Assembly: GCA_019638355.1 (NCBI GenBank)
Contig: JAHBTY010000001.1
Location: forward strand, 186,001 to 250,000
DNA length: 64,000 bases
Direction of reading: 5' to 3'
Origin: Cyclobacteriaceae bacterium
Lineage (GTDB): Bacteria; Bacteroidota; Bacteroidia; Cytophagales; Cyclobacteriaceae
Part shown: in pieces, positions 10,050 through 28,477 of the stretch
Numbering within the stretch: the stretch's first letter is position 1
How the letters are laid out: each line of letters begins with the position of its first letter
Made by a program: the position numbers and the translations under genes
The notes under the pieces: generated by a model
What the model was told of the DNA's origin: nothing
Database searches by the model: none
The model's input: only the letters and a program-made list of their open reading frames with translations

Positions 10050-12101
10050 TTAAAACTTTGGTGTGGGTTCGGCTTCTGTAAAATCGCCACGCAACGTACG
10101 GTAGCGTTTTCGGGCTTCGGCAGCAAACACACTACCCGGAAACTTATTTAAAAATTCGCGGTAGATTTCCATGGCCTTGTCTTTGTTTTTGAGATGGCGC
10201 TCTTGCAATTCGCCTTGTAAAAAGTAGGCATCATCCGCCAGTATATCTTCACCAAATTCGGTAATAATTTTTTCCAGCAGTGCATAGGCCAATTCAAACT
10301 CTCCACGCTTCAGGCGAAGGTTTGCTTCTAACCAATATACATCGTCTTTTATTCCCAGTCGATCGGTGTTTACAATTTCATCTACCCAAACGGAATCCAT
10401 ACCAATTTCTTTAAACATATTATTGGCAATGTTCTCTTTGGTTTTCTCCAGGTCTTTCTTCAATTCCTCCAGCTGTTGTTGAGTAAGTTGTTTATCGGGC
10501 GACCAAAGGTTTTTTCGAATTGCTTCCTCACGACTCATTTTAACTTTACGAACTACTGTAAATTTTTTTAATCTTTGCAGCGCCTGTTCATTCTTGTTTT
10601 GCGCAATCAATAATTCTATCGAAGCAAATTCTTTCAGCGCATATCCTTCCGGGTCGTACAATGAATTTTCTTTTATCCGCATACTTAATTCAATGGCATC
10701 GTTGGCTATTTCGCGCGAGGTGGCTTGTTTCAAAATATCCAAATGTTCTTGTGCCAATAAGAATTCTCCTTTAAAATAAGAGAGCTTCGCATTTCGTAAT
10801 TTAGCTTCATAACCTAATGGAGTTTCGCGTTGCGATTTTTCTACCTGCGAATAAAGTAGTGTTGCTTCCCACGGTTCTTCTTTCAGTAGATAAATATCCC
10901 CTAGTTCAATTTTTGCTTTTGCCTTCAGGTTAGGCGAAACCCTGGGGTTTACAATCAATCTGTTTAAACTACTTATAGCCGAATCCTTTTGATCGAGGTA
11001 ATATGCATAAAGCAGGGACTGGCTTAGGTGAGCATCAAACGAATTGGGATGCTCAGGATATGCTGTACGGAAATTATGATATTGAGAAATCAGGTAGTTA
11101 ACAGAGTCGCGGTTAACCGGATAAGATTTTTTTACTTTTGCTTCATGGGCTTGAATTAATCCCAGCCGTGCAGGAAGTTCATTGGTTGTTCCGGCATATT
11201 CCTTTATAACAAAACTATAGGCTTTATCTGCATTGTTATAATCGTTGTTATTTAACGCAATCTGCGCTATTTCTAAAGTTTTAGATTGATCTTTCTTAAA
11301 CCGTTTGTCGTAAGCCCGTGCTTGTATAAAAGCCCAGTAAAAGTTTTTTTGCTGCAGGTTCACCCAAATCAACAAATCAGCGAATACCTCTGAATTCTGA
11401 TTTTGCTGAACCTTGTCATAGAGTAGTCTCTCCAAAGCTTCCAACTCCTCTGGTTTGGAAAGCAGGATCTGCATAAGATTTTTAACATAACTAATGTTGG
11501 CAGGAGTTTGCGTTACATAGTTGAGGTATTCCTGAACCATCAAATCGCGGTTGCCGGAAATACGGTAGAGGTTCGCTAACTCCAGCGTGTACAGATTATT
11601 TCCCGCAACTTGTCTTGCCTGTTGGAGCGCCAATATCGAATACTCAACATGATTGCGTGCTGCCAGGTAGTCGGAGATTGTTTTAAGTTTGTAAGCATCT
11701 TCTCCTTGAGCTTTGATAAAGGCACGAAAATATTTATCGGCTTTAGCGATTTCGCCCGATCGTGTATAGACAATGCCGAGGTCCAACCGGTAAGTAAGGC
11801 GTGCATCCCGTTTAATAATTCTCTCAATGTAATCTTCAGCTTGTGTAAAGCGACCGACATCAAGCAGCAGGTTAAAGTAATTATTGTGGATAATCGCAAT
11901 GTTTTCATTTTTTTTTGCCAGTTGTTCGTAGAGCGCAATTGCCTTTTCTTTTTCGCCCTTCAGTATGTATTCGTTCGCAATTTGTATTTCTTGAGTATCC
12001 TGAGCAAAAATTTGAGAATAAAGTAATGCACATAATAAGGTTGCTTGTATTCTTATTATATAATATTTATAATTTAAATAGTAATAGTTATTCCTGTGCA
12101 T
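10050..12101 (-). CDS. TPR-repeat secreted protein
   Basis: 683 residues. A basic, Tyr/Asn-rich leader precedes a hydrophobic signal core (ATLLCALLYSQIFAQ). The body is a run of tetratricopeptide-type helical hairpins (AIALYEQLAKKNENIAIIHNN, held within residues ~55-75, then AEDYIERIIKRD) and a late YaiO/BamD-like repeat (AMEIYREFLNKFPGSVFAAEA). TPR proteins act as scaffolds for partner proteins. The partner here is unknown. Its 5' end is very AT-rich and runs into the DnaA-box cluster described at 12100-12360. Confidence 0.75.
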   Translation of the reverse strand: MHRNNYYYLNYKYYIIRIQATLLCALLYSQIFAQDTQEIQIANEYILKGEKEKAIALYEQLAKKNENIAIIHNNYFNLLLDVGRFTQAEDYIERIIKRDARLTYRLDLGIVYTRSGEIAKADKYFRAFIKAQGEDAYKLKTISDYLAARNHVEYSILALQQARQVAGNNLYTLELANLYRISGNRDLMVQEYLNYVTQTPANISYVKNLMQILLSKPEELEALERLLYDKVQQNQNSEVFADLLIWVNLQQKNFYWAFIQARAYDKRFKKDQSKTLEIAQIALNNNDYNNADKAYSFVIKEYAGTTNELPARLGLIQAHEAKVKKSYPVNRDSVNYLISQYHNFRTAYPEHPNSFDAHLSQSLLYAYYLDQKDSAISSLNRLIVNPRVSPNLKAKAKIELGDIYLLKEEPWEATLLYSQVEKSQRETPLGYEAKLRNAKLSYFKGEFLLAQEHLDILKQATSREIANDAIELSMRIKENSLYDPEGYALKEFASIELLIAQNKNEQALQRLKKFTVVRKVKMSREEAIRKNLWSPDKQLTQQQLEELKKDLEKTKENIANNMFKEIGMDSVWVDEIVNTDRLGIKDDVYWLEANLRLKRGEFELAYALLEKIITEFGEDILADDAYFLQGELQERHLKNKDKAMEIYREFLNKFPGSVFAAEARKRYRTLRGDFTEAEPTPKF

Positions 12102-12360
12102 ATGTGGATAACGTATATTCTTTAAACGATAGGTGTCAATTTTGTGGATATATTATTGATGATTTTCTGCTTTGATATCCCAATTTCGAAGGTAATTAAA
12201 TTTTATGAACATAGTTTTGAATATGTGTATGGATGGTTTCATGCTTTCAACAATAGGTGGATAAAGGTTGTAAGCTTGATAATTTTAACATTCTGTCCTG
12301 TGTTTTAAATGGTTCTTGAAGACATTAGTGGATAAGCGCACGGGTTATCCACAGCTTTAA
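12100..12360. other. candidate replication origin (DnaA-box cluster)
   Basis: This 267-bp gap holds five DnaA-box matches. Two are perfect: TGTGGATAA (12103-12111) and, in the opposite orientation, TTATCCACA (12345-12353). Three match at 8 of 9 bases: TGTGGATAT (12143-12151), GGTGGATAA (12256-12264) and AGTGGATAA (12327-12335). A strongly AT-rich tract (about 12055-12092) next to the first box could serve as the unwinding element. mnmG, often found by bacterial origins, is 2.5 kb away and parS-like sites are 4.4 kb away. The origin function is inferred. dnaA itself is not in the window, and many flanking genes to the right run head-on. Confidence 0.65.
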
Positions 12361-12368
12361 CAAGTTGT

Positions 12369-13979
12369 TCAGAATTTTAATGTCAATGGTCCGTATTCCC
12401 AGTTAGCTCGTATTGGGAAGGTAAATTTGCCTTCTTCTGATTTATAATAAATTGATTTTTCTGGCTCATTTCTGGTTAAAAAGTTTCCGGCATCCCATTT
12501 TCCGTTTCCGTTTCGGTCAATTATTATTCTAATCTTATATTCATTTGGGCGCACGAGTTTAAAGGTGTGCTCTTTTTGGTTTAAGACCTGGTCATAAATT
12601 TTGTCATCAGCGGTTAGCAGTTGTATAATAAAGAACTTTTGAGTTGTGTTTATTTTTATACTAACTAACCCGGTGTCTTCTTCTTTCTCAAATTTTATTT
12701 CTTTGACGATTCTTTTCGATGAGTCTTGTTCGGTAGAAATTAATGCACCTTTGGCTATTACCAGCGATAAGGGAAATTTGTTATTGGACTTTGATGTGTC
12801 CGCAGCTATTGTACCTGTTTGAAATTGTAACGTGTGGCGAAGTGTGTCAATTGTGATGTTTTCAGGTAGGATAGGTTGCCTTGTTGAGGAGTCTTTTCTG
12901 ATGTATATGCTGTCAGGTATTATAGCCAACAGTGGTTTGTTGTAGGTTATTTTGTGCGTGTAACTTCTTTTGGAATTGTTATAAATAGCTGATACTTCTT
13001 TAATGGTAAAAAGTTCAGCAGGGTATTTTGTTTCACTACTTTTAATAAAGAAAGTTGAGTCTGCTTTTTGACCGATGCTGTCAATGGCGAATAGATTCAC
13101 CTTAATTGAATCGGCTTTGGAAAGGTTGTGCTGAAATATCAGCTCGCTTGGTGTATCGCCAAAAAAATAGCTAACAGCTTTAGTGGTAGTTATACGAAGC
13201 GAATCTACTCCTTTGTTAAAACGAATACGGCTTGTTTTTTCAGTATGTCGCAGAGCTGTTAATTGCAGCGGTCTGGCATCTATACTAATAAGATTTAGCG
13301 TAACAGAGTCCTCGTTTTGTGTTATCAGTATTGGTTCAGTCTTGAATGCAAATTTTTCAGTTTTGCTATCAACCTTCAGGTTTCTATTTTTATCGTCAAA
13401 GGCATATATATAGTACGATCCTGATTTTAAGTTGGGAATTAAGAAGCTGCCTTCTTTATTGCTTTTGGTAAAATAGGTTGGTGTATGTTTAAAGATATTG
13501 AAAGTATCTTGCTGGTATAAGGCAACCGTTATCTTTTCAGGAATTTTTTCTGAGAATGTTTCTGTTAGGTATCCGGAAATACTTAGTGAATCAATGACAG
13601 GGCCAGTACTGAAGGCCAATCGTAAATTTTCTGCCGGATTACCTTCATTTAAATCCTGAACTCCATCGCGAAAGCTGATGCTGTAGGTTGTGTTGCTTTC
13701 CCAATCATTTTGTGGTTCAATTATTAGTTTATTTTTTTTTACTGTAAACTTTGTGTCTTTTCCTGGCGAAGGTGTTATAAGTATCTCTTCTTTGGCATCT
13801 TTAAGTTTAATTAATTCGGTAAACGTTAGTTCTATACTTCTTCCTTGAAAATTTTTTTGATTATTTGCGGGGGTAGAATGAATGAGTTCAGGGGGTGTGT
13901 CATCTTTTGGGCCTCCGGTTGGGGAGGTAACACTGGCGCATGCGGCCAGCAACATAAATAGTGGCAAAATACTTCTCAC
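12369..13979 (-). CDS. Ig-like (Big_5/SbsA-type) lipoprotein
   Basis: 536 residues from a GTG start whose bases overlap the methyltransferase stop by 4 bp. The lipoprotein signal ends LLAAC (Cys14), followed by the characteristic TSPTGGPKDDTPPELIHSTP. Residues ~28-130 are an Ig-like Big_5 domain (IELTFTELIKL, NTTYSISFRDGVQDLNEGNP). Later parts look like beta-sandwich modules, including one with YYIYAFDDKNRNLKVD. The family is common at the Bacteroidota cell surface, and its role is unknown. The ribosome couples it to the methyltransferase gene, but the two have no obvious functional link. Confidence 0.8.
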   Translation of the reverse strand: MRSILPLFMLLAACASVTSPTGGPKDDTPPELIHSTPANNQKNFQGRSIELTFTELIKLKDAKEEILITPSPGKDTKFTVKKNKLIIEPQNDWESNTTYSISFRDGVQDLNEGNPAENLRLAFSTGPVIDSLSISGYLTETFSEKIPEKITVALYQQDTFNIFKHTPTYFTKSNKEGSFLIPNLKSGSYYIYAFDDKNRNLKVDSKTEKFAFKTEPILITQNEDSVTLNLISIDARPLQLTALRHTEKTSRIRFNKGVDSLRITTTKAVSYFFGDTPSELIFQHNLSKADSIKVNLFAIDSIGQKADSTFFIKSSETKYPAELFTIKEVSAIYNNSKRSYTHKITYNKPLLAIIPDSIYIRKDSSTRQPILPENITIDTLRHTLQFQTGTIAADTSKSNNKFPLSLVIAKGALISTEQDSSKRIVKEIKFEKEEDTGLVSIKINTTQKFFIIQLLTADDKIYDQVLNQKEHTFKLVRPNEYKIRIIIDRNGNGKWDAGNFLTRNEPEKSIYYKSEEGKFTFPIRANWEYGPLTLKF

Positions 13980-14860
13980 GCGTGTTCGGCTATATAAATA
14001 AGACTTGAAAACTCACCCGTCTTTTTTGCAGCCTTGTTCGATAACCATCCATTGTATATGGCACTAATATATTTCAACAGGCTGTTCCTGTTCGGGTTTT
14101 TGTATTTTTCACTTAACATTGATACGTAGTATGCATCCAGTTTCATGGGTACAATTTGTTTTAACGTAAAGCCGGTTTGCCGAAGTAATTCTACCATAAC
14201 TGTTTTGTCGAAGTGCCATAAATGACGCGGAACATCATATGCAGCCCAATGCTGTTGGTACATAAACGCATCTGCACTTTTATAATTCGGAACGGCAATA
14301 AAAATAGTGCCAGACGGCTGCAATTTTTTTTTCAGTTCAATGAGCGTCTCTGATAGCGCATGAACGTGTTCCAGCACATGCCATAGCGTAATAATGGAAA
14401 ACGTTTGGTCTATTGTTTCTAGGCTTGCATGAACTGTAGCTTGCTTCATGGCTATTGTCCGGGCTTCCGATGCGGGTTCTACTCCAGTCGTATTCCAACC
14501 TTTTTGTTTCATGTGTGCTAGAAAGCTTCCGGTTCCGCAGCCATAATCAAGTATTAGCTTTTGTTGCGAATACCGATTTACAAGTTGATGTTTCCATGTA
14601 AGTGTGTAGGTTCGTGCCAGCCTGTAAAGTCTGTCGATTAATGACTTTGAACCTCCTGTGTGCGATATGTAATTTTCGGATTGATAGTAGGTGTGGATGT
14701 TGGTACTTGTCGGGCGTGGGTTTGTAAAAACAAATCCACAAGTAGTGCAGCTAACAAGTTTAAACTCTTGTTTACTAACGGTATAGTCTGTTACCGATAG
14801 GAATGGGGTGATGGAAGTACCTTGGCAAATCGGACAAGCCGATAAAGTTTCGAGCATCAT
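13976..14860 (-). CDS. class I SAM-dependent methyltransferase with N-terminal zinc ribbon
   Basis: 294 residues. A CPICQ...CTTCGFVFTNPRP zinc-ribbon-like pair begins the protein. The SAM-binding core follows with LDYGCGTGSFLAHM, GVEPASEA and SIITLWHVLEHV, which is typical of the Methyltransf_23 group. Members modify sugars, quinones or unknown small molecules, so the substrate is not known. It begins one base before the mnmG stop and overlaps the Big_5 gene start by 4 bp, which suggests a mnmG-methyltransferase-lipoprotein transcript. Confidence 0.85.
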   Translation of the reverse strand: MMLETLSACPICQGTSITPFLSVTDYTVSKQEFKLVSCTTCGFVFTNPRPTSTNIHTYYQSENYISHTGGSKSLIDRLYRLARTYTLTWKHQLVNRYSQQKLILDYGCGTGSFLAHMKQKGWNTTGVEPASEARTIAMKQATVHASLETIDQTFSIITLWHVLEHVHALSETLIELKKKLQPSGTIFIAVPNYKSADAFMYQQHWAAYDVPRHLWHFDKTVMVELLRQTGFTLKQIVPMKLDAYYVSMLSEKYKNPNRNSLLKYISAIYNGWLSNKAAKKTGEFSSLIYIAEHA

Positions 14861-16723
14861 TTACTTTCCAAGATACACCGTTAAGATTGAAACATCGGCA
14901 GGAGAAACTCCACTTATGCGCGACATCTGCCCGATCGTTTCGGGACGAATGCGTTTTAGTTTTTCTCTGGCTTCCGATGATAGTGCTTTCACCCGGTCGT
15001 AATCAAAGTCGGGAAGAATTTTATAATTCTCTAAGCTTTCAATTTTTTCGGCAAGCTTCTGCTCTCGTTGTATATATGACTCATACTTCAGGTTTATCTC
15101 AACTTGTTGTTGAACATCTTCACTGAATTGATCCAAGGTCTTCTTTATTCGGCTATCCAGAGAGGAAAGCTCTTTCATTCCAACTTGTGGTCTTCGCAGC
15201 AACGACACCACCGATACTTTTTCTGGAATGGGGGATGTACCCAATTGTTCAAGTTTGTTGTTAACAACTTCTGGCTCTGCTCTCATTTCTGTAAGCTCTT
15301 TTAACAGTCGCTCCATGTCGTTTTTCTTGGTCAGGATTTTTTCAAAGCGCGATTCATCGGCAAGACCAAGTTTGTAGCCAAGTTGTGTAAGTCGCAAGTC
15401 TGCATTATCCTGACGCAATAAAATTCGGTATTCGGCCCTTGATGTAAACATGCGGTACGGCTCCTGAGTACCCTTGTTGACAAGATCATCAATCAACACA
15501 CCTATGTAGGCTTCAGACCGCTTTAGTGTGAAAGGCTCTTTGTCATGAACTTTGTTATGTGCGTTTATCCCAGCTATCAATCCTTGACAGGCCGCCTCTT
15601 CATAGCCTGTTGTACCGTTGATTTGACCTGCAAAGTACAGATTATCAATAAGTTGCGTCTCTAATGTGGTCTTTAGCTGTGTGGGAGGAAAGAAATCATA
15701 CTCGATTGCATAACCCGGGCGAAACATTTTAGCATTCTCAAAACCGGGAATCATTCGCAACGCTTTGTATTGAATATCTTCTGGAAGAGATGTGGAGAAT
15801 CCATTCACATAGATTTCCACAGTGTTCCAACCTTCGGGTTCAACAAAAATCTGATGCCGTTCGCGCTCTGCAAACCGGTTAATTTTGTCTTCAATAGAGG
15901 GGCAATAGCGCGGTCCTAATCCCTTTATTCTACCCTGAAACATAGGCGACCGATCAAAGCCTTGTTCCAATTGTTTATGTACGTTTTGGTTGGTGTAAGT
16001 GATCCAACAACTAAGTTGTTTTTCGGGTACTTTTGTATTGGTGTATGAAAATTTACCCGGCACTGAATCTCCGGGTTGTTCTTCCATTAGTTTATAATTC
16101 AAACTACGACCGTCTATTCTTGGTGGAGTTCCGGTTTTCATGCGGCCAGCCTCAAAGCCTAATTCTATTAGCTGTTCAGTAATTCCGGTAGCAGCCCTTT
16201 CTGCTGCTCTCCCACCACCAAAATTCTTCTCACCAATGTGAATCTTGCCATTTAAAAATGTTCCATTGGTTAGCACGACTGATTTGCCGCTTATTTCCAA
16301 CCCTAGCGAAGTTCTGATACCAACAACCTTATTTTGCTTAACTATCAGTCCGGCAACCATTTCTTGCCAGAAATCAATATTTGGTATGCGTTCAAGCATT
16401 AGCCGCCAATGTTCAGAGAATAACATTCTATCGTTTTGAGTTCTTGGGCTCCACATAGCTGGCCCCTTTGATAGGTTTAGCATGCGGAACTGAATCATAG
16501 ATTTGTCGGACACTATTCCAGAGTAACCACCCAGTGCATCTATTTCGCGTACAATCTGGCCTTTAGCCACTCCACCCATTGCCGGGTTGCACGACATTTG
16601 GGCAATGGTGTTCATGTTCATGGTTACAAGCAAAACCTTCGAACCCATATTGGCGGCAGCAGCAGCTGCTTCACAGCCGGCATGGCCAGCCCCCACCACA
16701 ATTACATCGTACTCTGGAAACAT
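14861..16723 (-). CDS. mnmG: tRNA uridine-5-carboxymethylaminomethyl modification enzyme MnmG (GidA)
   Basis: 620 residues, the usual length. The FAD-binding start [20 protein letters not shown] is followed by [13 protein letters not shown] and [12 protein letters not shown], and by the conserved C-terminal helical region. With MnmE (not in the window) it modifies the wobble U34 of certain tRNAs in the cytosol. The 68 bp before its start codon hold two parS-like palindromes, and the start is close to the ybeY stop. mnmG lies next to the origin in many bacteria, which fits the DnaA boxes 2.5 kb away. Confidence 0.97.
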
Positions 16724-16735
16724 CGTTTAAGATTT

Positions 16736-16789
16736 TGTTCCACGTGAAACAAAGTTTAAGAACCTCCCATTTGAGTTCCACGTGAAACG
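16736..16789. other. two parS-like centromere sites
   Basis: TGTTCCACGTGAAACA (16736-16751) differs from the parS consensus TGTTTCACGTGAAACA at one base. A second copy, AGTTCCACGTGAAACG (16774-16789), shares the core GTTCCACGTGAAAC. They lie 38 bp apart between mnmG and ybeY. parS sites are bound by ParB near the origin and direct chromosome segregation. parAB genes are not in the window, so the call rests on the palindromes and their place next to mnmG. Confidence 0.75.
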
Positions 16790-16791
16790 TT

Positions 16792-17211
16792 TTATTTACG
16801 CAAAGATAGGCAAGCTTCTTCTGTTTTGCGCATCAGCCTCTTTTCAGAGGCTTTCTTGTCCTTAAAGCCAATCAGGTGCAAAACCCCATGAATAATCACA
16901 CGATGCAATTCCTGGTCTTTACTTACCTGAAATCGTTCGGCATTATCGGCAACACGCTCTATACTTATATAAATTTCGGCCTCAATTGGTTCTACCCTCT
17001 TAGAAAGCCTGAAGGTTATTATATCGGTAAGTGTGTTATGCTTTAGAAATTCCTTATTGATGGATAAGAGATAAGAATCAGAGCAGAAAACATAAGTTAG
17101 CTCTGAAAAGGGAGCATTGTAGCCTTTTACAACGGACTTAATCCAATCGGTAGTTTTTTTCTTGTTGAAACGAGGCAGGTGAACATCTGCAGCGTAAAAC
17201 GAAACTTGCAT
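16792..17211 (-). CDS. ybeY: rRNA maturation endoribonuclease YbeY
   Basis: 139 residues. YbeY proteins are zinc RNases that act in 16S rRNA processing and ribosome quality control. The core IIHGVLHLIGFKDK supplies His108 and His112. The third zinc ligand, usually His in GYDH, is Asp118 here; as I recall, YbeY of this phylum often has this change. The start overlaps the previous gene's stop by one base (TAATG), so translation is coupled to the RsbW-like ATPase. Confidence 0.88.
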   Translation of the reverse strand: MQVSFYAADVHLPRFNKKKTTDWIKSVVKGYNAPFSELTYVFCSDSYLLSINKEFLKHNTLTDIITFRLSKRVEPIEAEIYISIERVADNAERFQVSKDQELHRVIIHGVLHLIGFKDKKASEKRLMRKTEEACLSLRK

Positions 17212-28341: not shown

Positions 28342-28477
28342 TAATTTTTTAAACGCAGTTGTGAGAAACTTGTTTCAAAATTACAAACAGAGAATTGTAT
28401 TAATGAAAAAGGAATAAATAATTTTGGATACATCAATTAACAATAAAAAACTTTAATTTTTTAACACATACCTTAGA

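Follow-up and report, generated by a model that had tools for sequence, protein, structure and literature searches.

A predicted chromosomal replication origin between the Big_5 and TPR genes of a Cyclobacteriaceae genome, with an unwinding region that carries a predicted gene start

Does a cluster of DnaA boxes lying away from dnaA mark the place where chromosome replication starts in a member of the Cyclobacteriaceae? The cluster lies in the window analyzed here, i.e., the whole stretch of 64 kb at G000:C1:186001-250000, from a genome of 4.49 Mb in 7 contigs. A sequence-only reading of the window had proposed the cluster as an origin (oriC), and the description on which it relied holds in our scan. 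The gap is 267 bp long, bounded by ORF ends at 12101 and 12369, and has two perfect TTATCCACA boxes in opposite orientations (12103-12111 on the minus strand, 12345-12353 on the plus strand). Between them are three 8-of-9 boxes, at 12143, 12256, and 12327, all on the minus strand, and one edge of the gap has an AT-rich tract (12041-12097) whose lowest 50-mer has 12% GC. The mnmG gene is nearby (14861..16723, minus strand) and dnaA is, as the reading stated, absent from the window: it lies at C3:315070. Given the evidence presented below, we predict with very high confidence that the element in the gap between the Big_5 and TPR genes is the chromosomal replication origin. The features are the following, in window coordinates.

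10050..12101, minus: TPR-repeat protein gene, N-terminus resembling a signal peptide on reading the sequence, predicted start codon in the origin (ORF, domain search)
11885..11893, minus: perfect DnaA box within the TPR gene, outlying (box scan)
12041..12353, unstranded: predicted oriC, DnaA-box array and unwinding region (box cluster, conservation, parS, dif-like site opposite in relatives)
12041..12097, unstranded: putative DNA unwinding element, AT-rich (among the lowest-GC 50-mers of the window)
12076..12087, minus: putative DnaA-trio, CTATTACTATTT, reading 3'-GAT-AAT-GAT-AAA-5' on the complementary strand (four triplets in phase, CTA first)
12095..12103, minus: degenerate second tandem box ATATGCACA, holding the predicted TPR ATG (tandem motif in 54/56 loci)
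12103..12111, minus: perfect DnaA box, first of the tandem pair, adjoining the unwinding region (box scan, tandem motif)
12143..12151, minus: DnaA box with one mismatch, ATATCCACA (box scan)
12256..12264, minus: DnaA box with one mismatch, TTATCCACC (box scan)
12327..12335, minus: DnaA box with one mismatch, TTATCCACT (box scan)
12345..12353, plus: perfect DnaA box, inverted, at the right edge just past the Big_5 stop codon (box scan)
12369..13979, minus: Big_5/DUF2141 protein gene, flanking the origin (ORF, domain search)
13976..14860, minus: methyltransferase-domain protein gene (ORF, domain search)
14861..16723, minus: mnmG (gidA) (PF01134, 552 bits)
16737..16750, unstranded: parS-type site GTTCCACGTGAAAC (pattern match)
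16775..16788, unstranded: parS-type site GTTCCACGTGAAAC (pattern match)
16792..17211, minus: ybeY (domain search)

The density of boxes is exceptional in this genome. The five boxes in 300 bp compare with at most three anywhere else in the 1,539,721 bases sampled (34% of the 4.49 Mb, in 78 stretches), in line with the earlier argument that the group is beyond chance. Over the whole window the excess is mild (24 boxes with at most one mismatch for a shuffle mean of 16.85, with 3 of 100 shuffles reaching 24), and exact boxes show no clear enrichment genome-wide (56 vs 52 for the reversed word). Two further boxes were absent from the sequence-only reading. The degenerate ATATGCACA overlaps the left perfect box by one base, and we infer that it is a DnaA site. 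The outlying perfect box lies 218 bp from the left origin box, with an identical spacing in another genome (G151, locus L112). Elsewhere in the genome, at C6:220787-220818 (L078:787-818), three DnaA-type boxes occur within 32 bp, two of them perfect and inverted and one with a mismatch. We rejected this group as an origin, as it has no parS and falls within an open frame whose length is 408 codons or more. The frame adjoins an ORF whose translation reads as penicillin-binding-protein-like, and the group is perhaps a DnaA titration site.

Conservation of the boxes in relatives, a check named by the sequence-only reading, gave a positive answer in 54 of 56 family and genus loci and in 69 of 79 named loci. 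The Big_5 protein is present in 111 of the 118 genomes of the family and in 57 of the 62 of the genus. Among the matches listed we examined 58 distinct loci (30 of the family, own included, and 28 more of the genus), excluding two that are too short past Big_5 (L104 and L149). The motif has TTATCCACA and a second box that shares one base with it; after about 4 bases come a TAAT-like run with triplet periodicity and then an AT-rich tract. It is found 154-317 nt past the Big_5 stop in 54 of the 56 loci, a partly circular count since the profile was fitted to these same loci. The two loci that it misses (L093 and L097) have box clusters too, scattered over the first 1.4 kb or so past Big_5. The 69 named loci carry the motif between the same two genes, and the 79 come partly from the same genomes as the family and genus set. 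Those that lack it are a MAG of Cyclobacteriaceae in which boxes are still present (L245), Botryobacter (L263), and eight more distant Bacteroidota. The negatives of L271-L274 are weak, as the stop codon that places the search is 243-960 nt past the match. By Big_5 protein, the closest named relatives are MAGs labelled Cyclobacteriaceae, Cytophagales, and Flammeovirgaceae, followed further down by Chryseolinea, Ohtaekwangia, and Fulvivirga.

Boxes are also enriched in the rest of the gap. Between Big_5 and the motif there are 3.70 boxes per locus vs 0.125 in dinucleotide shuffles; for 48 of 54 loci no more than 5 of 100 shuffles attain the count, and for the other 6 it is not clearly above the shuffles. 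Within the first 60 nt past Big_5, TGTGGATAA with at most one mismatch occurs in 40 of 54 loci vs 1.7% in shuffles. A fixed tandem-box pattern, derived from such loci and free to match anywhere, has 126 matches in 76 of the 118 genomes, for 27 with the reversed control (counted from the table). At least 33 of the 126, selected by eye from tables and with their Big_5 ends checked by script, share the strand of Big_5 and lie downstream of it by at most 700 bp, where about 0.008 are expected. Using a profile made from 24 loci of other genera, the site studied here ranks first in the 1.54 Mb sampled from its own genome (23.8, the next being 19.3). In the relative G170, the origin locus scores 12.4 with the out-of-genus profile, below the best background site (20.6), and the motif alone is therefore no safe detector.

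The AT-rich tract adjoins the tandem boxes. GC as low as that of its poorest part occurs in 10 of the 63,951 50-bp windows of the 64 kb, in two places, the 12041-12097 tract and 28413-28464. On the minus strand the perfect box is followed by the second box, GGAATAA, CTA-TTA-CTA-TTT, and the AT-rich tract. There are thus four triplets, the first being 3'-GAT-5', starting 15 nt past box 1, which agrees with the published trio rule. This rule asks for three or more 3'-NAN-5' triplets no further than 16 bp from a DnaA box, as given in excerpts of the description of the basal unwinding system (BUS; PMC8287927). It is loose: 26 of 54 loci comply vs an average of 21.9 in shuffles. Since the length of the triplet run was non-discriminating, we added a test of periodicity. 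The period-3 T signal of the 54 loci, a property of the set and not of the own locus singly, is 0.396 vs 0.241 (sd 0.032) in shuffles, none of 1000 being as high. It also holds over the 20 loci for which no start-codon overlap is called (0 of 1000 shuffles). Runs of at least three triplets led by CTA occur in 9 of the 54 loci, and shuffles have 1.3 on average and 6 at most.

There are parS sites close to the locus. The "parS-like sites" mentioned in the sequence-only reading turned out to be two exact GTTCCACGTGAAAC words (16737-16750 and 16775-16788), placed between mnmG and ybeY at 4.4 kb from the predicted origin. A search of 14 genomes with GTTYCACGTGRAAC, a relaxed form of the parS consensus, gave 30 exact matches. 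In all 14 genomes the distance to the Big_5 3' end is 3,994-4,630 bp for every one of them, and the reversed control pattern has no match there. The sequence reaches at least 3.6 kb upstream of Big_5 in 60 of the 69 named loci that carry the motif, and all 60 have parS and the order mnmG-methyltransferase-Big_5-TPR. Two loci, L245 and L263, keep parS and the upstream gene block and lack the motif. In the latter (Botryobacter ruber), parS is between mnmG and ybeY, there is no box cluster past Big_5, and no TPR match was found in the locus; the origin may have moved in this species.

A dif-like site lies on the opposite side of the chromosome in relatives. The dif-like word TAATTTAYATTATGTTAAR, chosen for its recurrence among the matches of a loose-pattern search, occurs once each in 11 of 12 genomes. 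A mismatch search for this word covered nine genomes and, with G114 in both sets, the searches comprise 20 distinct genomes. Fifteen relatives were testable, i.e., had the locus and the site on one chromosome-sized contig (ten from the loose-pattern set and five from the mismatch set), and in all of them the site is at 0.2-4.5% of genome length from the point exactly opposite. The own genome (7 contigs, site at C5:920) and G127, G142, and G035 (locus and site on different contigs) are outside this test, and the mismatch search revealed no clear dif-like site in G010. We took the candidate with the fewest mismatches in G114 and G091. G012 had five equal candidates, with three mismatches each, and one was chosen by eye, a choice later supported by the shared flank. 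This left flank, GTTATA, is outside the search patterns and is common to 15 of the 16 dif-like sites fetched, own included. The other loose-pattern matches are within 5% of the opposite point in 6 of 26 cases vs about 2.6 expected. In other phyla, according to excerpts of PMC3025954, where a predicted dif site lies correlates with where, near the terminus, the skew has its shift-point. The site found here is a putative dif. Together, the conservation in synteny, the parS sites 4.0-4.6 kb off, and the dif-like site opposite in relatives support the reading of the cluster as an oriC. The analysis establishes the anatomy of the element, its conservation, its proximity to parS, and, in relatives, its opposition to the dif-like site.

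GC skew has less to say. The sequence-only reading had named a minimum near the locus as a support; the skew agrees with it in direction and is weak and not significant, with 83 of 1000 block shuffles as good. We sampled 78 stretches of the own genome (1.54 of 4.49 Mb) and, in one relative, G170, 40 stretches (0.8 of 4.72 Mb). In a contiguous 400 kb of C1, the candidate is at 198 kb, the minimum of cumulative skew at 232 kb, and the best step at 168 kb. Mean skew on this contig is -0.019 left of 200 kb, +0.001 at 200-400 kb, and +0.008 beyond. In G170, which is a single contig, skew best fits an origin at 3.10-3.16 Mb, or at 3.45-3.63 Mb after correction for gene strand; the locus, at 3.365 Mb, is 0.09-0.26 Mb from these positions (one-sided permutations, 370/5000 and 352/5000). 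Skew agrees in direction, would not convince alone, and is no main support of the prediction. The putative leading strand carries 61% of the coding bases sampled left of 200 kb and 45% of those sampled at 200-400 kb. The minus-strand genes that would be head-on to a rightward fork, which had been counted against the origin, have limited weight as an objection because strand bias is weak overall. The 20-kb stretch G000:C2:320001-340000 (L047) has 31% GC, vs mostly about 42% in the other stretches sampled. Almost all of its long ORFs are minus-strand, and it is possibly a mobile island. In G117, the word TTTTCCACATTTCAACA is found at most 70 bp from the starts of contigs C14, C29, C87, and C138, as well as in C161 and C164, and is probably a repeated element of that genome.

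Could the boxes serve something other than initiation? They are directly upstream of the TPR gene and extend into it, as expected if they made a DnaA-regulated promoter or a datA-like titration site acting on this gene while replication started elsewhere. Such a role leaves unexplained why parS is exclusively close to this locus in 14 genomes, why the dif-like site is opposite in 15 relatives, and why an AT-rich tract accompanies the tandem boxes. Moreover, the sampled third of the genome has no comparable cluster elsewhere. We thus consider it very improbable as a replacement for an origin, and the two roles could exist together.

An origin next to dnaA is a common bacterial arrangement, and here dnaA is on another contig. 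That region has four scattered one-mismatch boxes in 4,380 bases (mean of 1.31, with 9 of 200 shuffles reaching four). We rejected it for want of a comparable box cluster and of any exact parS match there, and hold it to be even less probable than a promoter or titration site. The last alternative is a chance cluster in an AT-rich gap. The box counts of the window, mildly above chance at most, would suit it; the near absence of boxes in shuffles of the same gaps (0.125 vs 3.70) and the conservation across the family make its probability almost negligible. An oriC in the gap between Big_5 and TPR remains by far the best explanation.

This predicted oriC overlaps a gene. In the own locus the predicted start codon of the TPR gene is inside the second DnaA box (12095-12103), and an unwinding part that carries the predicted start of a neighbour gene is unusual. 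We could trace the TPR frame in 45 of the 54 loci (9 were left out; start codons are predicted). In 34 of the 45, the ATG of this frame is in or just past the second box, 10-23 nt from the start of box 1. Thirteen of these 34 overlap loci, own included, have no later in-frame ATG, GTG, or TTG before a conserved ANEY-type motif. Residues 2-13 are on average 39% Asn+Tyr in the overlap loci vs 6% in seven loci where the first ATG is further down. From these sequences, it is likely that the start of the TPR gene has grown into the origin and that the origin sequence dictates the peptide. A more speculative proposal, which we would sooner bet against than for, is that the unwinding element also provides an exported TPR protein with its translation start and N-terminal codons. 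The DnaA filament would then block the 5' end of the gene at each initiation and so tie production of an envelope protein to the replication cycle. On this proposal, the DnaA-trio is what would make the N-terminus so oddly rich in Asn and Tyr, as a by-product. With unwinding element and gene start overlapping, two constraints would act on a single sequence, and this can be tested.

The order of the parts suggests how the origin may work. DnaA would bind and load onto the box array (12103-12353), and a DnaA filament starting at the tandem boxes (12095-12111) would run leftwards, in window coordinates, onto the DnaA-trio. The filament would open the AT-rich tract (12041-12097), where the replicative helicase would then be loaded and the origin would fire, presumably as the chromosome's single one. 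ParB, bound to the two parS-type sites 4.4 kb off, would help segregate the new origins. If so, the start of replication, and with the dif-like site the ori-ter axis, is marked in a family of Bacteroidota whose skew is weak in the two genomes sampled. Sequence motifs, namely the tandem boxes past Big_5, parS between mnmG and ybeY, and a defined dif-like site, could serve to orient chromosome maps as well as growth-rate estimates from read depth. The literature listings surveyed, a thin basis, contain no account of such an origin in the family, and DoriC may list some of the loci.

DnaA-dependent bacterial origins are of the kind predicted in DoriC and by Ori-Finder. The present element resembles them in having boxes clustered in both orientations, an AT-rich region alongside, mnmG (gidA) and parS nearby, and, in relatives, a dif-like site opposite. 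It differs from them in that it is away from dnaA, between the Big_5/DUF2141 and TPR genes, and it is compact (about 260 bp of boxes), with weak GC skew. The oriC of E. coli adjoins gidA/mnmG and mioC (cf. excerpts of PMC4446571). Here too mnmG is within a few kb; in contrast to E. coli, it is 2.5 kb off with two genes between. The closest parallel in the fine structure is with the BUS, as far as excerpts of Pelliciari et al. 2021 (PMC8287927) describe it: tandem boxes of which the upstream one is nearer the consensus, and triplets led by 3'-GAT-5' within 16 bp. The element differs from those excerpts in its spacer, 15 nt from box 1 (about 11 in the family consensus) for a published peak of 10-13, and in overlapping the predicted start of a protein-coding gene. 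The layout is family-wide, the predicted oriC is of a known kind, and its overlap with a gene start is unusual.
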